In this document: positions 11,149 through 28,878 of the stretch, piece by piece
Layout of the letters: each line of letters starts with the position of its first letter
Position numbering within the stretch: the stretch's first letter is position 1
NCBI GenBank assembly: GCA_011369465.1
Contig: DRQG01000090.1
Coordinates: 1-43,591, forward strand
DNA length: 43,591 nt
Direction of reading: 5' to 3'
DNA from: Caldithrix abyssi
GTDB taxonomy: Bacteria > Calditrichota > Calditrichia > Calditrichales > Calditrichaceae
Translations under genes and position numbers: made by a program
Notes under the pieces: generated by a model
Database searches by the model: none
Seen by the model: only the letters and a program-made list of their open reading frames with translations
What the model was told of the DNA's origin: nothing

Positions 11149-12267
11149 ATGATGAAATCAGAAACTTATAAGGAAGCTTTTGAGCGGGCCGGAATTCCCC
11201 GTCGGGAATTTTTAAAATTCTGTACCTATACGGCCGCTTTGCTGGGTATCGAGGCTTCCGGCTTGTCCAAAGTGGTTCATGCCATGGAAACCAAGCCGCG
11301 TCCTCCGGTTATCTGGCTGCATTTTCAGGAATGTACATGCTGTAGCGAATCCTTTATCCGTGCCTCGCATCCCATCGTAGCGGATATTATTTTGGATACC
11401 ATCTCCCTCGACTATACGGAAACACTTCAGGCGGCAGCCGGGCACCAGGCCGAAAAATGTTTACAAGATACGATGAAAAACTATTATGGAAAATATATCC
11501 TTCTGGTAGAAGGATCCGTTCCGGTTAAAGACGGCGGTATATATTGTACAATCGGCGGACGCACGGCGCTGGATATTCTTAACGAAACAGCCGAGGGCGC
11601 TGCGGCCGTGATTGCCTGGGGCAGTTGTGCCTCCAACGGTTGCGTTCAATCCGCCAAACCGAATCCCACGGGTGCAACCCCGGTGCACAAAATTATTAAC
11701 AAACCGGTAATCAATGTACCGGGTTGCCCGCCAATTGCCGACGTGATGGCCGCCGTGGTTACGCATATTCTTATTTTTGATAAAATTCCTGAGCTCGACG
11801 GACAGGGCAGACCGAAAGAATTTTATTCCCGTCGTGTGCACGATACCTGTTACCGTCGTCCCTATTACGATGCCGGTTTATTTGTGGAAAGCTGGGATGA
11901 CGAAAAAGCTCGCAAAGGTTACTGCCTGTATAAAATGGGCTGCCGCGGACCGGTTACCTACAATGCCTGTTCGGTTACCAAATGGAACGAAGGTACCAGT
12001 TATCCCATCCAGTCCGGACACGGCTGTCTCGGTTGCAGTGAAAACAGCTTCTGGGATAACGGTCCCTTTTATCAGCATCTGGCCTCATTCCCGGGATTCG
12101 GGATCGAAACGACTGCGGATGATATTGGAACGGTTATCGGGGTCGGCGCTTTGGCCGGAGTGGCCGCGCATGCCATTACCACCAATATCCGCAAAAGAAA
12201 GCTGATAAAAGAAAACATGGAAGAGTCCTCGGAGGAAAACCATAAAGTTGAAGGGGGTGAAGAATAA
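11149..12267 (+). CDS. hyaA: [NiFe]-hydrogenase small subunit, group 1, oxygen-tolerant six-cysteine type
   Basis: This 372-residue protein carries a Tat signal ([16 protein letters not shown]) and so faces the periplasm. It passes electrons from the NiFe site through three Fe-S clusters. The proximal-cluster ligands include Cys62, Cys64 and Cys65 (ECTCCSES), Cys160 and Cys165 (GSCASNGC) and Cys193 (PGCPP). Cys64 and Cys165 correspond to the supernumerary Cys19 and Cys120 of oxygen-tolerant enzymes such as E. coli Hyd-1 and Ralstonia HoxK, which hold a [4Fe-3S] cluster. The distal and medial ligands are present ([24 protein letters not shown]). A C-terminal membrane anchor ([17 protein letters not shown]) and basic tail follow. 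The TAA overlaps the ATG of the large subunit. Confidence 0.95.
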
Positions 12268-13994
12268 TGGCGAGAATCGTAGTTGATCCAATCACCCGCA
12301 TCGAAGGGCATTTGCGCATCGAAGCGGTTGTTGAAAACGGCGTCATTACCGATGCCTTTAGCTCAGGAACAATGGTGCGCGGTATCGAAAAAATATTACT
12401 GGGCAGAGACCCACGGGACGCCTGGGCTTTTACCGAGCGCGTTTGCGGTGTGTGTACCACTGTTCATGCGCTGGCCAGTGTACGGACCGTGGAAGATGCT
12501 CTGGGCATTAGCGTACCCAAAAACGCCGAATTAATCAGAAACCTGATGTTCTGCGCTCAGTATGTTCAAGATCATGTAGTGCATTTTTATCATTTGCATG
12601 CGTTGGACTGGGTGGATATCGTACAGGTGCTTTCGGCCGATCCGAAAGAGACCTCGAAAATTGCCCGATCCATTTCGCGTTGGCCTAAAAGCTCTCCGAA
12701 ATATTTTGCAGATGTGCAAAAACGGATCAAAACCTTTGTGGACAGCGGTCAGTTGGGGATATTTGCCAACGGATACTGGGGGCATCCGGCGTATAAGCTT
12801 CCACCGGAAGTTAATCTGTTAGCCGTGGCCCATTATCTCGAGGCTCTGGAATGGCAGAAGGAAGTAGTTAAAATTCATGCCATATTGGGCGGTAAAAACC
12901 CGCACCCCAATTATCTGGTTGGCGGGGTACCTCTTTCGATTAACACAGAAGAAGTGAATGCCCTCAATACCGAACGCTTGAATCACATCAATAAACTCAT
13001 CGGCGACGCCATCGTATTTGTGGAGCAGGTTTACCTGCCGGATCTGCTGGCAGTGGCGGGTTTCTACAAAGACTGGGCTTCTATCGGCGGCGGTCTGTCC
13101 AATTATTTGGCCTACGGCGATTTGCCTACGGCAAGTTATAATCAGCCGGAATCGTTTAAACTGCCGCGAGGCGCTATCTTAGACCGGAATCTGAGCGAAG
13201 TGCACGAAGTAAACGGACGCGACCAGAATGAAATTCGTGAATACATCACGCATTCCTGGTACGAATACGAAGGGGGTAACAATAAAAGTCTGCATCCCTG
13301 GGAAGGTGAAACCAAGTTCAATTTTACCGGTCCCAATCCACCCTTTGAACATCTGAATGTAGAAGAGAAATATTCCTGGCTTAAAACCCCGCGCTGGAAA
13401 GACCATGCCATGGAAGTGGGCCCCCTGGCCAGAATGTTAGTGGCATACGCTTCCGGCAGAACAGAGGTACAGGATGTGGTTAATGATGCGCTGGGGCGTT
13501 TGAATGTGCCGGTAGCGGCTCTTTTTTCCACCTTAGGCCGAACAGCGGCTCGCGGTCTGGAAACCCAGTTGGTAGCTCACTGGATGAAGGAGTTCTATGA
13601 CGATCTGATTGCCAACATTAAATCGGGTAACACCAGTACGTTTAATGATTCCAAATGGGATCCCGATACCTGGCCGGAAACTGCCGAAGGGGTCGGTATG
13701 ACGGAAGCGCCGCGCGGCGCTTTGGCGCATTGGATTCGGATTAAAGATAAAAAGATTGAAAACTATCAATTGGTTGTTCCCAGCACCTGGAATGCTTCTC
13801 CGCGTGATGCCAAGAATCAGCGCTCGGCATACGAACAATCGCTTATTGGAACTCCGGTTAATAATGAAGACCAGCCCCTGGAAATTATCCGCACAATCCA
13901 CTCTTTCGATCCATGTATTGCCTGCGCCGTACATCTCTATGATCCCGATGGCAAACATATTCATCAGGTACAGTTTAACCAGAGGGGGCTGTGA
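12267..13994 (+). CDS. hyaB: [NiFe]-hydrogenase large subunit
   Basis: This 575-residue protein holds the H2-activating NiFe site. The N-terminal L1/L2-type motifs include RIEGH and RVCGVC (Cys60, Cys63). The C-terminal motif is DPCIACAVH, giving Cys550, Cys553 and His556. The 19 residues after His556 form the tail that a specific protease removes once nickel is inserted. The length fits group 1 uptake enzymes. It has no export signal of its own; family knowledge says it crosses the membrane with the Tat-targeted small subunit. It overlaps the small-subunit stop by one base (TAATG) and the cytochrome b start by one base (TGATG). Confidence 0.97.
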   Translation: MARIVVDPITRIEGHLRIEAVVENGVITDAFSSGTMVRGIEKILLGRDPRDAWAFTERVCGVCTTVHALASVRTVEDALGISVPKNAELIRNLMFCAQYVQDHVVHFYHLHALDWVDIVQVLSADPKETSKIARSISRWPKSSPKYFADVQKRIKTFVDSGQLGIFANGYWGHPAYKLPPEVNLLAVAHYLEALEWQKEVVKIHAILGGKNPHPNYLVGGVPLSINTEEVNALNTERLNHINKLIGDAIVFVEQVYLPDLLAVAGFYKDWASIGGGLSNYLAYGDLPTASYNQPESFKLPRGAILDRNLSEVHEVNGRDQNEIREYITHSWYEYEGGNNKSLHPWEGETKFNFTGPNPPFEHLNVEEKYSWLKTPRWKDHAMEVGPLARMLVAYASGRTEVQDVVNDALGRLNVPVAALFSTLGRTAARGLETQLVAHWMKEFYDDLIANIKSGNTSTFNDSKWDPDTWPETAEGVGMTEAPRGALAHWIRIKDKKIENYQLVVPSTWNASPRDAKNQRSAYEQSLIGTPVNNEDQPLEIIRTIHSFDPCIACAVHLYDPDGKHIHQVQFNQRGL

Positions 13995-15857: not shown

Positions 15858-16700
15858 ATGCTCAGCAGGTTCATTTCAAACAAACCGCTTTTTATTTTAC
15901 TTTTGATGCTGCATGTTCTCATCGCCCGGAATGTGTTTATAACTGTGGAGCCAGTGGAAACCGTTGAGCAGCGCTTTGCCCCGCCGCCGGGTTTTAAACG
16001 GCTGCCTGTTGCAGACAACAGCTTTGCCGCCTGGCTGCGCAAGCTGCCGCTGCTGCCTCAGGGGCAGCCGGTGCGCGATTACCGCAATCGTATTTTCAAA
16101 AAAACCGGGGATTCCACCGTTGCCGCGGTGGCGGCCTATAATATTCGCGGACGTAAACTGGAACAGTGCATGGATATTATCGTACGCTTGCGGGCGGAAT
16201 ATCTGTGGCGTTCCGGTCAAAAAGCGGTCATCCGTTTCCCTCTGCCGGAAGGTACAGATTTTCGCTGGACGGACTGGGCCGGGGGGCTGCGGCCGGTCTT
16301 TCGCGGCGCTCATTTTCAATTGCAAAAATCCGCCGGAGCGGACAGCAGTTATGCAGCCTTCGAACAGTATCTGAATGTGCTCTTCGAATACTCGGGTACT
16401 CAGGCTTTTTATCATTACTACCCGGATATTGAACCCCGGCGGGTGCAGCCCGGTGATTTTGTGGTTAAAAAAGGTAAAAAGGGACATGCCGTTTTGATTG
16501 TGGACATGGCCGCCGACAGCGCCGGTAATACCGTGGCTCTTATAGGACAGGGTGATACCCCGGCCTGTCAGTTTTATCTGCTCAATTATCAAACAGGCAA
16601 TCCCTGGTTCCCGCTCGAACCCGCAGAACAAAAGGCCCTGCCGCTGCCCATAAAAAAGAAGATGTACTGGAAAGGTTTGCGTCGGTTTCCCGGTGAGTAA
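15858..16700 (+). CDS. DUF4846-type exported protein
   Basis: This 280-residue protein has an N-terminal hydrophobic signal or anchor (PLFILLLMLHVLIARN). The mature part contains GFKRLPVADNSFAAWLRKLPL near the start, CMDIIVRLRAEYLW in the middle and GDFVVKKGKKGHAVLIVDMA toward the end; I recognise these as the DUF4846 pattern. The GHAVLIVDMA segment resembles the histidine strand of NlpC/P60-like peptidases, but I see no clear catalytic cysteine, so no activity is claimed. It stands alone between the MarR gene and a convergent - strand cluster. No good ribosome site precedes the ATG. Confidence 0.7.
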   Translation: MLSRFISNKPLFILLLMLHVLIARNVFITVEPVETVEQRFAPPPGFKRLPVADNSFAAWLRKLPLLPQGQPVRDYRNRIFKKTGDSTVAAVAAYNIRGRKLEQCMDIIVRLRAEYLWRSGQKAVIRFPLPEGTDFRWTDWAGGLRPVFRGAHFQLQKSAGADSSYAAFEQYLNVLFEYSGTQAFYHYYPDIEPRRVQPGDFVVKKGKKGHAVLIVDMAADSAGNTVALIGQGDTPACQFYLLNYQTGNPWFPLEPAEQKALPLPIKKKMYWKGLRRFPGE

Positions 16701-17162
16701 ATAGTACATAGTACTTAGTATTTAGTACTGAGTCGTTGGATTGTAGGGGGCAGTTTAGAACGTTTATTGCTCACATTTCGAGCTGGCAGGGCCAGAGTGC
16801 GGATAGTTGCTATTTTAGCGATACCATCGTTTAGAGCGATGGTATCGCTAACCTTCCCGTTGCGCAGTTGGTTTTAAGACCTTGCCTTGCAGGAAAAAGG
16901 TGTCACAGGTAAACCGGTGGGCAAACCATCCGGATACATATAACCGCACGCCCAGGAAAGTGCGTTCCTCCCTTCGCTAAAAGCAGAAAAAGATTTTGTT
17001 TTACTTTTACCTGCAGATGAGGACCCTTTCACAAAAGGTAAACCAATAATTCATTTATTAAACTATTCGCTTGTATTCCCGTTTACCTTGTAATATTAAA
17101 GGTTGTATTTAAAAATAACCTTGTATTTTTAAAACCTGGTTTAAAAAAGGAAAATATCCATT
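16701..17162. other. Gene-free convergent intergenic region
   Basis: These 462 bases lie between two convergent genes. They begin with a TAGTA-rich repetitive stretch (16702-16731) and contain one striking hairpin at 16816-16850. The last 100 bases are AT-rich. I see no coding frame with protein-like composition. Confidence 0.7.
16816..16850. repeat. Perfect 14-bp-stem hairpin
   Basis: TAGCGATACCATCG (16816-16829) pairs perfectly with CGATGGTATCGCTA (16837-16850) around a seven-base loop. No T-run follows on either strand, so it is not a canonical terminator. It may be a bidirectional stop, a dispersed palindromic repeat unit or an RNA processing element. Confidence 0.8.
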
Positions 17163-18188
17163 TCATTGTTTCCGAAAAATATGGTGAAATCCCGCCAATA
17201 TCTGCCAGCCGCTCAATTCCTCCTTGCGGCCGGGCAGGGTATCGTTAAGGTAGCCGAAACGTAAAAAGAGTTCGCTGTTTTTACCCACATCGTATCCGGC
17301 TTTGGCGTACAGCCAGTTCTCGCTGTCCAACGGCGTATAGGTCAGATGATCTTCCACCACCTCGTTCCCGGCATTGCGGATAAAATATTTTATATATACA
17401 AACAAAGACAGGCGGTCGGAAAGATATTTACCGGCCACAAGGCGCACGCTGTGTTCGACGACCGTTTTCCGGTTAAGACGATTTTGTTCCAGAACAAGCA
17501 GATAAGCGGCGTTAAAAATATAATCCTGTGCATAGCGAACGGCCAATAAAGGCCCAACCCGTGTACCGCTGTTCCGGCCGCGTTCACTGTACGGGATGCT
17601 TTCATGTATTAGAAAGCGTTCAACATAGAGTTTAAGCTGGTAGTTCAGCTTATCCCTGAACCGACCGCCGATGCCGCCCTGGGCGTTGTAACTGTCCAGA
17701 CGCATGAAAGGTTGCCCGCTGATATCGCGGTAAAAATAGCCCAATTGAGCCAACCAGGCCGCCCCCGTCTTGCGCGGCCAGGAGCCCTGAGCGGCGAGAT
17801 AAAATATATTGTACCGGATGTTTGCGTTTTGTCCCAGATCGTAATAGTAGAAACGGTAATTGAGATCAAACCGCCAGGCGAATGCGGATTTATTCTGACC
17901 GCCGAGGGTAAAAATCGATTTGGTTTTAACAGCATATTGGCTTCTGTCCGCGCCATAAACCTCGGGCGCCAGGCGGATTTTCAACTGGAAATAGGTTTGG
18001 GTGTAAGTTTTGTCATAGCGCAGGTTACCGATCAGCCGCATGAGGGATTTATCCGCATAGTTTTCGGTAAGAAATGCGCCGCCTTCTCCCGTAGCCTGAA
18101 CTAGCAGCCGCTCCCGATTCCCGCCGAACAGAAGTGATAACATCCCGAAATGTGCCAAAAAGAAACCGATAAGAAGCGATTTACGCAT
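17163..18188 (-). CDS. Probable outer-membrane beta-barrel protein
   Basis: This 341-residue protein starts with a signal peptide (MRKSLLIGFFLAHFGMLSLLFGG). The rest alternates polar and aromatic residues in many short strands, such as FDLNYRFYYYD, NYQLKLYVERFLI and SLFVYIKYFIRN, which is typical of a transmembrane barrel. It ends in IFRKQ rather than the usual C-terminal Phe. I do not recognise a named family. It is the last gene of a - strand run and follows a coiled-coil periplasmic protein by 56 bases. Confidence 0.6.
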   Translation of the reverse strand: MRKSLLIGFFLAHFGMLSLLFGGNRERLLVQATGEGGAFLTENYADKSLMRLIGNLRYDKTYTQTYFQLKIRLAPEVYGADRSQYAVKTKSIFTLGGQNKSAFAWRFDLNYRFYYYDLGQNANIRYNIFYLAAQGSWPRKTGAAWLAQLGYFYRDISGQPFMRLDSYNAQGGIGGRFRDKLNYQLKLYVERFLIHESIPYSERGRNSGTRVGPLLAVRYAQDYIFNAAYLLVLEQNRLNRKTVVEHSVRLVAGKYLSDRLSLFVYIKYFIRNAGNEVVEDHLTYTPLDSENWLYAKAGYDVGKNSELFLRFGYLNDTLPGRKEELSGWQILAGFHHIFRKQ

Positions 18189-18244: not shown

Positions 18245-19207
18245 TTACTGTCCGAGTTTTTCCGTGATAAATTGACGATAGAGAAGCAAATACTCTTTCA
18301 CTTCATTCAACAACTTCAGGTAGCGTTCCACTTTTTGTTGCTGCAAGGGGTTATCGGAAGAAGCCTGACCCGAGGTTACCAAATCGTCATACAAACGGTT
18401 GATGGTTATGATACGATTATTCAATTCGCTTGTGGTTATTCCGGGACCGGTAGCGGTATAATCCGTATTCCCTGTTCTGCCCTGAGCATTTATCCCGGCC
18501 AACTGATCTTGCGGTCCGAAAAACAATCCTTCGTTTACATCATCCAAAAACAGTTCGGCCTTGGCCGCCAGTTTTTGCTGCTTCCGGATGGTGCTCTCCG
18601 TGCTTTCCACCGCCTGTAACTGCGAGTCGATTTCGGCCAGGGATAAGACGAGATAGTCGTCGCGCAGCACCATGCCCAGGCTGTCTTCCGTTGGCGGCGG
18701 CAAGCGCTGCGGATCAAAATGAACCCGTTGCAGATGCGGGGCAAACTGCAAACGTTTTGCATAAAGACGCAGCAACTCCCTGTGCCGTTGTTCTTTGTTT
18801 TGTACGGAAGATTCGTTTTGCAGAGAATCGATCTGTCGGCCGTAATAGGCGCGCAGCCGGGCTTTTTCTTTTTCGCTATCGCTGAGCAGGGCATTGTATT
18901 CCGTTTGCAGACTTTCGATTTTTTGGGAAACGGATAAGGCCCGGGCCATTTCGCTTTTGATGACCTCCTCATCCGGTTCGGGAAGTGCCTTCAGAGAATC
19001 AATGCGGGACAGTCGTACCTGTAATTTCTGCTGTTGATTTTGTATGTTCGCCTCCAGGGTTTTGATCCGCTCAATCAAGTTTGCCACTTTTTTTTCCCGG
19101 TTAACTATATTCTCCTGTGATTGGGCAGACAAAAATGTACAGAAGATGGCCAGAAAAAGAGACACCCTGATGAATATTCCCATTCGTGTTAAAAACGTTT
19201 CACTCAT
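18245..19207 (-). CDS. Exported coiled-coil protein of unknown function
   Basis: This 320-residue protein has a signal peptide (IFIRVSLFLAIFCTFLSAQS). Long amphipathic heptads follow (ERIKTLEANIQNQQQKLQ, SVSQKIESLQTEYNALL), so residues about 35-160 should form a coiled coil. A second helical region lies at the C-terminus. There is no enzyme motif. The start may be Met1 or Met9; neither has a clear ribosome site. It begins 28 bases after the sulfatase-nucleotidase stop and is probably co-transcribed. A periplasmic structural or envelope role is a guess. Confidence 0.6.
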   Translation of the reverse strand: MSETFLTRMGIFIRVSLFLAIFCTFLSAQSQENIVNREKKVANLIERIKTLEANIQNQQQKLQVRLSRIDSLKALPEPDEEVIKSEMARALSVSQKIESLQTEYNALLSDSEKEKARLRAYYGRQIDSLQNESSVQNKEQRHRELLRLYAKRLQFAPHLQRVHFDPQRLPPPTEDSLGMVLRDDYLVLSLAEIDSQLQAVESTESTIRKQQKLAAKAELFLDDVNEGLFFGPQDQLAGINAQGRTGNTDYTATGPGITTSELNNRIITINRLYDDLVTSGQASSDNPLQQQKVERYLKLLNEVKEYLLLYRQFITEKLGQ

Positions 19208-19235: not shown

Positions 19236-22148
19236 TTAGTCCCGGGCTATATCGATTTGTCGGCCTACATCCGGCATTGTTATCGTTTTTCTTGTTTTGA
19301 TATAGTCCGCGATATACTCTACAACAATTTTAGGAAGAATAGCAAGGCGTTTACCGTTTTTCAGCATGGTAAAACCGTCGCCGCCCGTGGCCAGAAAATA
19401 GCTGCAGGCAATGGTGTAGTTTTTGTTCGGATCCAACGGCTTCCCGTTGACGGATGCCTCAATGAGCCGCTGACCGACCGGCCGGCTGGAATCATATTTT
19501 AATCGCAGGCCGGAAAACTGCACCAGACCGTAAACCAGTTCCAGGCTGTATTCGATGAGAGATTGTAACGCTGTTCCGCTGATTTCCACAATAACCAGAT
19601 TATCCACAAAAGGATAAATATTATCCAGTTCTTCTTTGGTGATCGGTCCCGTATTCAAGTCGGCGCGGATGCTGCCGGGATTTACCATAGCGATTTCGGC
19701 CCCGCTGGCCTCTTTAAGGGCGTCGGCCAGAAAATTACCCAGGTTTGATTCCCGGTAATATTTTCTGTAACCGGTTTTTTCGTTGTAGCCGATCACTTTG
19801 GACAGGTGCGAATATTTCTTTCTTGCCTTTTCTATCATTGCGAAAATGTCGGGATCGGCTGCTATTTTATCGGAAACGACGGGAAGCAATTTTCCGTCCA
19901 ATAAATCAACCCGTTGTTCCGTTTTATTTATTCTGAGCTTCATATACCCCAGATATTTTCCCTGACCAAAGGTCATGCTGATGAGAGTGCCGTTTTGGGG
20001 ATGACGAACAGGCTCCCACAACCCGTTATCCGAATGGCCGCCTAAAATTACATCGATCCCTTTAACCCGTCCGGCCAAGGCATAATCTTCGTCAAAGCCG
20101 CGCTGTACTTCCGGGTCGGCTTCTTTATCCGATTGCATGGGAGCGCTGCGGTTTTGATGGGTCAACAGAACGATCAAATCGACATCATCCCGCAATTTGT
20201 CCACCAGTTTCTGAACGATGGGAACCGGATCACGGGCTTCCAGCTCTTTTACATTATCGGGAAGAATGGTGTTTTTGAAGGCCTCGAGACCCATTACGCC
20301 AATCACTCCAATGCGTACACCCTGTTTTTCCAGAATTGTGTAAGATTGCGCATAGTGAATATCTGTGTTTTTATAAAATATATTGGCGTTTAAAACGGGA
20401 AAACGGGCCCGCTGTTTCACATCCAGCAGCTTTTGCCAGCCGTATTCAAATTCATGATTGCCCAGGGCCATGGCCTCGTATCCCATTGCGTTGTACAAGT
20501 CGAAGGGCAGCGCACCGCGGGTGGCTTTAGATAAAGCGCCGGTGAAAATATCGCCGGAATCAAATAAAAAGGTGAGGTTCTCTTTCTTGCGCATTTGTTT
20601 GATTAAAGCGGCTAAATGCGGGATACCGCCGATGTGGTTTATATTATTGTCCCAATAGGCGTCAATCGGATCATAAACACTCTCGATATCGTTGGTATAT
20701 AAAAGGGTTACTTCACGGACGGATGGCGGCTTACTTTCGGGACGCAAAGGATCATCGGCAATGCTTTTTTTGATGTCGCGGATTGACCTTTCCAAACGGG
20801 CAACGACGTCCGGATGCTGCCGGCTCACCTCCTTTACTTCATAGGGATCTTCTTTAAGATTATAAAGCAGACTTCTGTTAAGGGATTCATCCGAAATCAA
20901 CTTCCAATCGCCGTCGCGCACAGCGTACACATAGCCTTCGGGGTCGTCGGCCGGGCGGGTTTCGAAGGCCCAAAAAAGCGGTTTGTCTCTTTCAATTTTT
21001 TGATTGTCAAAAAGCGGCGAAAAATCGATTCCGTCAATTTCCCGGTCATCGGGGATGGGAATATCGAGGATTCCGCAGACCGTCGGCAATAAATCGTAGC
21101 CGTGCAGCGGTTCATCCGACACACTACCCGCTTTAATCTTTCCGGGAAAACGGATGATACAGGGGACACGGATGCCACCTTCGTACAGGTCGGCTTTCCG
21201 ACCTCTTAATCCACCGGTGCTGCCATACATATTTACTTCCCACCAGTATCTCCACTGGTTGGTAACCGGGCCATTATCACTCAGGAAAATAACCAGTGTA
21301 TTGTCCCGTAAATCCATCCGTTCCAACTTGTCGAGCAGTCGTCCGATTTGATAATCCATATATGTGACATTGGCGTAGTACTCTCCGGGACTGCGGTCTT
21401 CCAATTTGCTAATATCTATCTTGCCGTGAGTGAAGGCGCTGTACATCCGGTTAAAAGAATCCGGGCTGGCTATTTGAGAGTGCGGTTCCACCATGGGCAC
21501 ATACAAAAAGAACGGTTTGCTTTTATCGCGCTGTTCTAAATAGTCGATGGATTTATCAATAACCAGTTGTGCCGTAAAGCCCTCTGTATTGCCTAACGGT
21601 TTTCCATCTTCAAAAAAATTTGTCGGATTTTTATGGTTGGGTATGGCAAAGGCATGAAGGGCGAGCCATTTATCAAAGCCGTGATCCTGAGGCTGCGGAT
21701 GGTCGGTTTGACCGAGACCGCCATTGAGATGCCACTTACCGGCCATAAAGGTCTGATAACCTTCCTTTTTGAGAAGCGTGGCAAGAGTGATTTCCTGTTC
21801 ATGTAAATAAATATCTTCCCCTTCCGGTATCCAGCTTTTGATGCCGCTTCGGTATGGCGTTCGTCCTGTAAGAATGCCGGCCCGGGAAGGGGAACACAAT
21901 GGGGAAGGACTGTAGAAATTGGTAAAACGCATTCCTTCGCCGGCTAAACGGTCCAGGTTGGGTGTCGATATATATGGATTGCCGTAACACGCTAAGTCTC
22001 CATAACCGAGGTCGTCAACCAGTATCAAAAGGATATTAAGTTTGGAAGACTGGGCGTAAGCGGCTGCGCTGTACATCAAAAGAAAAATGAAGAAGATAGA
22101 ACGCAAAAAATAATTCTGTATTGAAAACTGTTTGTTATCCGGAGTCAT
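19236..22148 (-). CDS. Sulfatase / 5'-nucleotidase fusion protein, exported
   Basis: A signal peptide opens this 970-residue protein, and AAGGAG precedes the ATG. Residues about 35-470 are a type I sulfatase: metal-binding Asp45-Asp46, CSPSR with formylglycine site Cys85 and Arg89, AGKWH (Lys138, His140), EPHS (His223) and SDNG (Asp291, Asn292). Residues about 478-970 are a UshA-type 5'-nucleotidase/cyclic phosphodiesterase: TNDIES (485-490), FDSGD (529-533), GNHEFE (from 563), LTHQNR and GGHSDNGLWE, then the C-terminal nucleotide-binding domain (NFLADALKEAS, YFLATGGDGFTML). Glu489 replaces the usual metal-binding His of TNDxH. A periplasmic or surface scavenger of sulfate and phosphate from one substrate is possible but unproven. 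Confidence 0.9.
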   Translation of the reverse strand: MTPDNKQFSIQNYFLRSIFFIFLLMYSAAAYAQSSKLNILLILVDDLGYGDLACYGNPYISTPNLDRLAGEGMRFTNFYSPSPLCSPSRAGILTGRTPYRSGIKSWIPEGEDIYLHEQEITLATLLKKEGYQTFMAGKWHLNGGLGQTDHPQPQDHGFDKWLALHAFAIPNHKNPTNFFEDGKPLGNTEGFTAQLVIDKSIDYLEQRDKSKPFFLYVPMVEPHSQIASPDSFNRMYSAFTHGKIDISKLEDRSPGEYYANVTYMDYQIGRLLDKLERMDLRDNTLVIFLSDNGPVTNQWRYWWEVNMYGSTGGLRGRKADLYEGGIRVPCIIRFPGKIKAGSVSDEPLHGYDLLPTVCGILDIPIPDDREIDGIDFSPLFDNQKIERDKPLFWAFETRPADDPEGYVYAVRDGDWKLISDESLNRSLLYNLKEDPYEVKEVSRQHPDVVARLERSIRDIKKSIADDPLRPESKPPSVREVTLLYTNDIESVYDPIDAYWDNNINHIGGIPHLAALIKQMRKKENLTFLFDSGDIFTGALSKATRGALPFDLYNAMGYEAMALGNHEFEYGWQKLLDVKQRARFPVLNANIFYKNTDIHYAQSYTILEKQGVRIGVIGVMGLEAFKNTILPDNVKELEARDPVPIVQKLVDKLRDDVDLIVLLTHQNRSAPMQSDKEADPEVQRGFDEDYALAGRVKGIDVILGGHSDNGLWEPVRHPQNGTLISMTFGQGKYLGYMKLRINKTEQRVDLLDGKLLPVVSDKIAADPDIFAMIEKARKKYSHLSKVIGYNEKTGYRKYYRESNLGNFLADALKEASGAEIAMVNPGSIRADLNTGPITKEELDNIYPFVDNLVIVEISGTALQSLIEYSLELVYGLVQFSGLRLKYDSSRPVGQRLIEASVNGKPLDPNKNYTIACSYFLATGGDGFTMLKNGKRLAILPKIVVEYIADYIKTRKTITMPDVGRQIDIARD

Positions 22149-22195: not shown

Positions 22196-23569
22196 TTACG
22201 CGCCGGCGTTCTCCCTCAAACCGAATTTTTCCAGCTTGTAATACAAAGTGCTGGTTCGGATACCCAAAATCTTTGCCGCCCGGTTTTTTACGCCGTCGGC
22301 TTCTTTGAGCGCCTGCAGCAACAGATGGCGTTCAAAGGCGTACAAAGCCTCTTCCAGCGGCAACGATTCAAAACCGCGGGTGATTTCGGTCGGTGTGTTC
22401 AGGAACCGGGCAATCAGGACGGCCGGGATATCGTCGCTATCGGAAATGATATGCAACCGCTCGATCAAATTTTCCAGTTCGCGGATATTGCCCGGCCAGC
22501 TATACTCCTGCAACAGCCGCATACCTTCATCGTCTATGTGTTTTTCCTGTCCGCGTTTTTGGTTGAACCGTTTCAGAAAATGCCGCACCAGTGCGGGAAT
22601 GTCGTCCCGGCGCTGACGCAAAGAGGGCAAACGGATGGGAATGACGCTGAGACGATAGTATAAATCTTCGCGAAAGATGCCCCGGTTAAGCAGGGCTTTC
22701 AGATCGCGGTTGGTGGCCGCAACCAGCCGCACATCCACTTTGAGCGTCTGTTCGCCGCCCACCCGTTCAAATTCCTGATCCTGCAGGACGCGCAGCAATT
22801 TGACCTGCATGGCCTGGGAAATATCACCGATTTCATCGAGGAATAACGTGCCGCCGTCGGCCAGTTCAAAGCGTCCTTTTTTCTGCCTCAGGGCACCGGT
22901 GAAGGCGCCTTTCTCGTGACCAAACAGCTCACTTTCCAGCAGATTATCGTTTAGAGCGCCGCAGTTTACCTTGATAAACGGGCCCCCGCTGCGCGGACTG
23001 TTACGGTGGATAGCCCGGGCCACCAATTCTTTGCCGGTGCCGCTTTCGCCTTCGATCAACACGGCGCTGTCTTCCCGCGCCACCTGACGAATCAGGGTAA
23101 AAATTTCCTGCATTGCCGGAGAAGAACCGACCATTTCAGCATATCCCTGAGCCGTTTCTTCCGCAAGATATTCATTTTCGGCCCGCAGACGATCGATCAG
23201 TTTTTCCTTTTCCAACCGTTCAACAATTTGTCGGACACGCAGGCGCAGTTCTTCGGGCGAGAACGGTTTGGTCAAAAAATCGGCAGCGCCCAGACGCATG
23301 GCTTTTACGGCGTCCTGCACCGTGCCGTAAGCGGAAATAAGCAGCACCTCGGTTTGCGGACGAATGGATTTTACCTTTTCCAGCACCTGCAAACCGTTCA
23401 TCCCCTCCATACGCAGGTCGGTAATTACCAGTGCCGGATGATGGGTTTTAATATACTCCACGGCCGCTGCTCCCTCGGCAAAATCGGCGGTGTCGTATCC
23501 TTCACGGCGCAGACTTTCGCTCATCCCCAGCCGCATGGTGTCGTTATCTTCGATTATAATAATTTCCAT
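22196..23569 (-). CDS. NtrC-family sigma-54-dependent response regulator
   Basis: The 457-residue protein has a receiver domain with phospho-acceptor Asp51 and Lys101, an AAA+ domain with Walker A GESGTGKE (174-181), a canonical GAFTGA loop (221-226) and Walker B LFLDE, and a Fis-type C-terminal helix-turn-helix ([23 protein letters not shown]). It activates sigma-54 promoters as a family. The sulfatase-nucleotidase gene starts 47 bases downstream on the same strand. The nearest histidine kinase, at 25803-27215, is separated by three small genes and is the likely partner by proximity. Confidence 0.93.
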
Positions 23570-27642: not shown

Positions 27643-28878
27643 TTAGTTCCACTCCGGCTTAACCATCTTACCTATAAATAAAATCGTTCCGCTGTGTTTC
27701 TCCCGAATGATGAAGATGAAAGGACGATTGAAAGTTACGTAAAAATCCACATCTTCGCCAACGGAAGTACGGCTAAATTCCACAACAGTGACCGCAGCGG
27801 CTTCCGTGCCTTCCTCATCCGTTTTAACGAAGGTCTTGTGCAAAGCACGGGTAATAAATATTTGTTCGTCGGGATTGATTCGGCTGAAATCGGCATCAAG
27901 CGAAAACGCCACTGCCATGCCCATGGAACCTAAAATTTCTTTTAAACCGGTAAAATATTCCATAGTAAACTTGGGAAGCGCCACCGTCCCCTTTTTGGTT
28001 TGCATGCTTTGCAGGTATTGGTTCCATTCGTCTTGCTGTAAATTTGTAATTAAATCATCCAACGCATAATCGTTTGCAGGAAGAAGCGCAGTCATGGAAA
28101 AGCTGCCGTTGCCGTAGGGCAGGTCAACCACCTGTACCTGCTCGTCCTGGTAATACCCGAGCTCGGCGGTTATTTTCATCATGGAACAGGTGATCGATCG
28201 TGCCGGCGTGATATAAAAGGGCTGCTCGGCTGTGTACTTTTTGTCAAACTGATATTGCCAGAGCGCTTTAAAGTAGATGGCATTGATCAGGTAAAGCACG
28301 GCCTCTTTCGGAATAACGTCGAGTATTTGCGTAATTTTATGATGCGTTTTTTGCGTTACCCAACCGTTAATGATATCAACGGCCGAAGGCAGTGAAAAAT
28401 CCAAAGCCTCTACATCGGCCTGAAAATATTTTTGGTTGTTCTCGATAAAAGACGGCAGCACGGAAAAATCCTGCCGGTACCAGATGGAATTGGCGTTTTC
28501 GAAAATCACCTGCGGATCGATGGAAACGAGCAATTGAATCAGGCTGCGATAATTTTTATTGATTTGTTCCCGGGTCAATCCGTCCAATTCCAGCGTATTA
28601 CGGATAGCCTCGTACGTTTCACCTTCCGCACCGTTGAGAGCCATGCCAAAGGCCATCGATACACTCAAAGGAGAAATGAACAAATTAGTATCCGGCTGCG
28701 CTTCGCTTATGGCTGCAAACAACTTTAAACCAAAATCCCGGCCGGATTGCACGAGTTGTTCTTCTGCAAGGGTAAGCGGACGAACATAATTTACCTCTTC
28801 TAAGGGCGATAAATCCCTTTTACAGCTTATTAGCAGGCCAACCAGAACGAGCATAAAGGTTAAAATTGATTTTTTCAT
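27643..28878 (-). CDS. Serpin-family protease inhibitor, lipoprotein
   Basis: This 411-residue protein has a lipobox (LLISCKR, Cys19) and a complete serpin fold: FISPLSVSMAFGMALNGA, NSIWY, LINAIYFKALWQ and DFYVTFNRPFIFIIREKHSGTILFIGKMVKP at the end. The reactive-centre hinge is EEGTEAAAVTVV from 355; with Gly357 as P15, Thr371-Ser372 would be P1-P1' and Arg370 P2. An inhibitory rather than non-inhibitory serpin is expected from the small residues in the hinge. AGAGGAGG precedes the ATG. It would protect the cell surface against serine proteases. The target protease is unknown, and a shift of the true P1 to Arg370 is possible. Confidence 0.93.
   Translation of the reverse strand: MKKSILTFMLVLVGLLISCKRDLSPLEEVNYVRPLTLAEEQLVQSGRDFGLKLFAAISEAQPDTNLFISPLSVSMAFGMALNGAEGETYEAIRNTLELDGLTREQINKNYRSLIQLLVSIDPQVIFENANSIWYRQDFSVLPSFIENNQKYFQADVEALDFSLPSAVDIINGWVTQKTHHKITQILDVIPKEAVLYLINAIYFKALWQYQFDKKYTAEQPFYITPARSITCSMMKITAELGYYQDEQVQVVDLPYGNGSFSMTALLPANDYALDDLITNLQQDEWNQYLQSMQTKKGTVALPKFTMEYFTGLKEILGSMGMAVAFSLDADFSRINPDEQIFITRALHKTFVKTDEEGTEAAAVTVVEFSRTSVGEDVDFYVTFNRPFIFIIREKHSGTILFIGKMVKPEWN

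Follow-up and report, generated by a model that had tools for sequence, protein, structure and literature searches.

The window, which is the whole 43,591-nt stretch of Caldithrix abyssi DNA analyzed here (contig DRQG01000090.1), contains a gene whose product joins a sulfatase to a 5'-nucleotidase. Is this fusion genuine, and what kind of molecule would call for both enzymes on one chain?

Two complete enzymes in one open frame

Both enzyme families are well known, and the join of the two appears to be new. The gene is a single open frame with an ATG start that encodes 970 aa without an internal stop, and its product consists, in order, of a putative signal peptide, a complete S1 (formylglycine-type) sulfatase, a 9-residue linker, and a complete UshA/CD73-type 5'-nucleotidase (Table 1). 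Pfam matches cover residues 38-363 (Sulfatase, 4.9e-65), 321-460 (SGSH_C), 505-706 (Metallophos, 5e-9), and 791-930 (5_nucleotid_C, 9.5e-40). The best solved relatives by sequence are the E. coli arylsulfatase 3ed4 for the sulfatase half (1.6e-120, residues 26-469) and the E. coli nucleotidase 3ivd for the nucleotidase half (4.9e-91, residues 478-959). An AlphaFold model of the whole fusion, based on a six-row alignment, has a mean pLDDT of 52 and is too poor to use. The reading in the preliminary description, a sulfatase and a UshA-like nucleotidase in one exported chain, is borne out by the intact frame, both sets of Pfam domains, and the putative signal peptide.

Table 1. Coordinates in the window of the fusion gene, its parts, and its conserved neighbors
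Feature	Coordinates	Strand	Basis
Complete fusion gene, sulfatase then 5'-nucleotidase	19236..22148	(-)	ORF and Pfam
Putative N-terminal signal peptide, residues 1-33 (...MYSAAAYA/QSS)	22050..22148	(-)	By eye: hydrophobic stretch plus AXA-type site
S1 sulfatase domain, residues 34-470, its C-terminal part of the SGSH_C type	20739..22049	(-)	Pfam; PDB 3ed4 chain 1.6e-120
Sulfatase signature C85-S-P-S-R89, Cys-type formylglycine site	21882..21896	(-)	Alignment
Linker PESKPPSVR, where unfused sulfatases stop	20715..20741	(-)	Ends of L022, L024, and L061 compared
Metallophosphoesterase domain of the 5'-nucleotidase	19875..20714	(-)	Pfam Metallophos; PDB 3ivd 4.9e-91
TNDIES motif, E489 replacing the His metal ligand	20679..20696	(-)	Alignments
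GGHSD motif, D707 replacing His/Gln/Asn of metal site 1	20028..20042	(-)	Alignments
5_nucleotid_C substrate-binding domain; N823, R828, F847, F918, and D924 kept	19359..19778	(-)	Pfam and alignment
Sigma-54 response regulator, conserved neighbor on one side of the insertion	22196..23569	(-)	Pfam and relatives
Conserved hypothetical gene on the other side of the insertion; directly after the regulator in relatives	18245..19207	(-)	Relatives
Third gene of the conserved operon, a conserved hypothetical	17163..18188	(-)	Relatives

All catalytic positions of an S1 sulfatase are present in the alignment (D45, D46, C85-S-P-S-R89, K138, H140, H223, D291, N292, and K318), and with them the C/S-x-P-x-R signature and the metal and catalytic set D, D, K, H, H, D, N, K by which S1 membership was judged. 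In the genome of the window (98.5% complete), the anSME family has no match and no FGE carries the active-site pair of Cys; those cysteines are missing from its two FGE-family proteins, and the maturase model does not recognize two SPASM radical-SAM proteins. Because no recognizable formylglycine-generating enzyme is found in this genome, sulfatase activity in this host is not assured: either the maturase was overlooked, or another route is used, or the sulfatases are inactive here. The genome (G000; L077, L078, L080, and L081) encodes several Cys-type sulfatases, yet without a recognizable formylglycine-generating enzyme.

Recurrence of the fusion and its insertion into the window's lineage

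Intact fusions occur in five further assemblies at 59-67% identity (L020, L021, G672, G649, and G667). L020 and L021 are Saprospiraceae metagenome-assembled genomes whose fusions are 66-67% identical to that of the window over residues 10-961 and 19-961, and the other three were found by searching 248 genomes of Saprospiraceae. The linker position, the domain order, TNDIES, and GGHSD are conserved across the window and these five. An assembly error or a missed stop is ruled out by these intact copies, and the frame check recommended in the preliminary description thereby has its answer, as the fusion is full length in all five. Based on the domain order, linker position, and TNDIES/GGHSD motifs shared by independent assemblies, we propose a sulfatase-nucleotidase fusion family. 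Two other copies are incomplete, one cut by a contig end (G698) and one losing its frame near residue 774 (G471). Frame changes appear to break the copies in G471 and G662 (L060 9734-10222 and L066 7819-8510), which are possibly pseudogenes or assembly errors.

Each half also exists alone. Unfused sulfatases that are 61-66% identical and stop at the linker occur in L022, L023, L024, G501, and G643, stand-alone TNDIES nucleotidases are found at 58-60% (G607, G593, and G494), and more distant stand-alone nucleotidases have the TNDYES or TNDFES form (G064 and G062). Separate genes ending at about residue 475 had been named in the preliminary description as evidence against the fusion; unfused orthologues of both halves do exist, with sulfatases that end at the linker, but they coexist with a conserved fusion, so the fusion is not shown to be erroneous. 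In the trees, the fused rows group together with a few separate copies. The AU test does not reject a tree in which all fused rows form a single clade (p 0.38 for the sulfatase and 0.065 for the nucleotidase), so the history could comprise either a single fusion followed by splits or two separate fusions. Phylum-wide searches, with strict cut-offs and few candidates scored per genome, found almost nothing beyond Saprospiraceae, and the clade is therefore narrow.

The closest sequences to the fusion come from Bacteroidota, and no copy was found in about 60 genomes related to that of the window. Three genomes of the same family have the sigma-54 regulator gene (59-64% identity) with homologues of g18245 and g17163 immediately after it, and in the window the fusion gene lies exactly between the regulator gene and g18245. 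A native gene of the window's lineage is ruled out by its absence from these relatives and by the direct adjacency of the flanking genes in the three genomes. Because it is inserted in a conserved operon and absent from about 60 relatives, the fusion gene was horizontally acquired.

Elsewhere in the window, we observed a bacterial serpin gene (27643-28878 (-), Pfam 8e-109), a gene for a nickel-dependent hydrogenase large subunit (12267-13994 (+), Pfam 1.2e-242), and a DUF4846 gene (15858-16700 (+)) with a 270-aa open frame almost wholly antisense to it (15897-16709 (-)).

The rebuilt metal site of the nucleotidase half

The nucleotidase motif had been read in the preliminary description as TNDIES, with Glu at the usual His position. 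This Glu is real and is present in every clade row spanning the site, but it is half of the change only: the second variable ligand of the same metal site is altered too, to Asp (D707), which had been overlooked. The alignments place the nucleotidase positions of the fusion at D487, E489, D533, N564, H565, H664, H705, and D707. Site 1 of CD73 and UshA consists of Asp, His, the bridging Asp, and one residue that varies (Asn in CD73 and Gln in UshA), and the Asn of CD73 is seen at this position in our alignment. Site 1 of the fusion is formed by D487, E489, D533, and D707 and is therefore all-carboxylate, while site 2 (D533, N564, H664, and H705) and the catalytic H565 are kept.

The Glu is not unique to the fusion, as unfused Bacteroidota nucleotidases carry it too. 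All TNDxE rows have Asp at position 707, except the deep-branching G064b, which has Glu with His, and almost all TNDxH rows carry His there. In the simplest history, His would have changed to Glu first and His to Asp second; each ligand change would have occurred once, and the Glu/Asp pairing is therefore not a statistical covariation. TNDIES is a property of the clade and one half of a double change at metal site 1.

Like the UshA/CD73 ecto-5'-nucleotidases, the C-terminal half has Metallophos and 5_nucleotid_C, the site 2 ligands, the catalytic N-H pair, the base-stacking clamp F847/F918, and the phosphate-binding R828; unlike them, it has Glu and Asp in metal site 1, E489 standing in place of the TNDxH His, and a sulfatase partner. 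The nucleobase clamp and N823, R828, and D924 are conserved among the fused forms, and the roles of these five residues are presumably those seen in CD73/UshA structures. Because the nucleobase-stacking Phe residues and the phosphate-binding Arg are kept, the C-terminal half is probably still a 5'-nucleotidase. A CpdB-like (3'-nucleotidase) identity is ruled out by the model scores (UshA 1e-54 vs. CpdB 2e-23). The window's genome also has a nucleotidase paralogue (L002, C15) with the motifs TNDLRG, GIND, and GHIP; because these metal motifs are degraded, the paralogue is possibly inactive.

Candidate substrates and their genomic context

The genes beside unfused sulfatases of the same subfamily point to nucleosides. 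In L022 and L024, the sulfatase gene and a uridine-phosphorylase-like gene lie tail to tail (PNP_UDP_1 about 1e-25 for the latter; the nearest NCBIfam model is uridine phosphorylase, with a score under the cut-off), followed by genes for molybdenum hydroxylase subunits. A cluster in G501 contains genes for an adenosine deaminase (1.8e-19), a purine nucleoside permease (NUP, 8.1e-112), a second sulfatase, and a MacB-type protein, then the unfused sulfatase gene and, at the contig end, a divergent TNDIES nucleotidase gene. In G643, a TNDxH nucleotidase gene lies immediately upstream of the unfused sulfatase gene on the same strand. Uridine-phosphorylase-like, adenosine deaminase, and purine nucleoside permease genes adjoin unfused sulfatases in L022, L024, and L061. 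The nucleoside probes matched none of the 149 genes at 20 further sulfatase loci drawn from these Bacteroidota genomes, a comparison that is suggestive, as the probes were picked after the test loci had been seen; L022 and L024 share synteny, leaving perhaps three or four independent cases. No nucleoside gene is found beside the relatives in L023, G607, G646, G494, and G222 (the flanks of L023 and G607 are short) or among the immediate neighbors of the fusions themselves.

We propose that the fusion is exported and has two hydrolase activities, recovering sulfate, phosphate, and nucleoside from nucleotide- or nucleoside-type molecules that carry sulfate, a reading to which we give an even chance. 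The N-terminal S1 sulfatase of this presumably secreted enzyme would take off the sulfate, probably as the first step, and the C-terminal 5'-nucleotidase would hold the base between two aromatic side chains and remove the 5'-phosphate with a pair of metals; the first of the two metal sites (D487, E489, D533, and D707) would bind its metal through carboxylates. APS-like 5'-phosphosulfates, or sulfate-ester 5'-nucleotides, could be processed in this way in two steps on one chain. Nucleotidase activity of the C-terminal half is likely, a nucleoside-type substrate for the sulfatase half has about even odds, and the passage of one molecule through both steps in sequence is speculative. The preliminary description had favored a nucleotide-type substrate for both halves, such as PAPS or PAP. 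The nucleotide class draws support from the nucleoside genes beside the unfused relatives, the Tsx-type channel gene of E. coli among them, and their absence from the 20 control loci, while PAPS fits less well than APS, chemically the simplest substrate, because, by the UshA and CpdB scores above, the second domain is a 5'- rather than a 3'-nucleotidase and a 3'-phosphate would be left. Cleavage of a P-O-S bond by S1 sulfatases is not documented in the literature that we found. To our knowledge, no S1 sulfatase has so far been assigned to nucleotides.

The two activities could instead be independent, tethered for convenience and acting on different molecules, with the acquisition of sulfate and phosphate outside the cell as the shared gain. 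Each half occurs alone on different contigs, as this would allow, and some Saprospiraceae fusions have sulfur- or phosphate-type rather than nucleoside neighbors: an alkanesulfonate-monooxygenase-like gene adjoins the fusion in L020, L021, and L057, with a Na/Pi cotransporter gene nearby in L020 and a gene for a Cys/Met-family PLP enzyme in L057. General scavenging of sulfur and phosphate does not predict nucleoside genes beside same-subfamily unfused sulfatases, and we regard independent activities as rather unlikely. Less probable still is a sulfatase acting on a sulfated polysaccharide or glycolipid, with the nucleotidase domain as an incidental passenger. Most S1 sulfatases of marine Bacteroidota are glycan enzymes, the G222 relative lies beside another sulfatase gene and a fucosidase-like gene (by inspection), and the L020 fusion has GH1-like and MFS_2 genes nearby; however, the G222 sulfatase is a distant relative, only about 40% identical, the close separate copies with nucleoside neighbors have no glycan utilization locus around them, and the fusion to a nucleotidase is conserved.

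The altered metal site itself, with two ligands changed together, raises the question of whether the C-terminal half has a different chemistry, as a sulfo- or thiosulfohydrolase like SoxB or as a non-catalytic binding domain. SoxB has the same fold and acts on a sulfur ester, and its NCBIfam model does match the C-terminal half (7.3e-49), but at 166.5 bits against a curated cut-off of 550, and the motifs and partners differ; a SoxB-like identity is ruled out by this score. Metal site 2 is intact, as are the catalytic His and the residues that bind the nucleotide, the top match among solved structures is the nucleotidase 3ivd, and the second changed position tolerates Gln in UshA and Asn in CD73. 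We therefore consider a changed chemistry the most improbable of these readings.

We found no report of a sulfatase-nucleotidase fusion or of a bacterial nucleoside sulfatase in the open-access literature; the SulfAtlas paper is silent on nucleotidases, and the UshA survey on sulfatases. Natural UshA-CpdB fusions have been described (PMC10454023), which likewise join two nucleotide-salvage hydrolases, although the partner there is a second nucleotidase and not a sulfatase.

In E. coli, relatives of both halves are encoded separately. The arylsulfatase 3ed4 (dnaJ-nhaA locus) belongs to the same S1 subfamily by tree and is 43% identical to the fusion over the whole domain, but it is stand-alone and Ser-type (SSPSR); its gene starts 20 bp after an OmpK gene that matches Channel_Tsx (3.1e-13). 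The CFT073 nucleotidase 3ivd/3ive, the closest solved relative of the C-terminal half (36%), and its two paralogues are encoded beside Tsx (1.5e-69) between metL and metF; unlike the fusion, it is stand-alone and retains TNDxH and GHAH. A regulator-like gene is present in each islet, and the two are paralogues (25%, 1e-34). CFT073 has both islets, and Nissle 1917 has the sulfatase islet and the nucleotidase gene; OmpK is found in 1255 and the sulfatase in 1259 of 5426 E. coli genomes, each counted separately. We also observed that the islets comprise Tsx with three nucleotidases and OmpK with the sulfatase (L055 17056-24246 and L073 7163-10825), and that their paralogous regulator-like genes bear an IS1-type zinc ribbon.

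As a tentative extension, somewhat short of an even chance, a distinct S1 sulfatase clade would be specific for nucleotide- or nucleoside-linked sulfate, the fusion would processively convert an exported or released sulfonucleotide such as APS to sulfate, phosphate, and nucleoside, and the 3ed4 and 3ivd islets of E. coli would encode that pathway in unfused form. The fusion and the context of its unfused relatives offer a concrete substrate class, cheap to test, for a sulfatase whose crystal structure is known (3ed4) and which roughly one in four of the complete E. coli genomes searched carries. The nucleotidase half would offer a natural two-carboxylate variant of the much-studied di-metal site of CD73 and UshA, in which it may be asked how metal identity and specificity are set.
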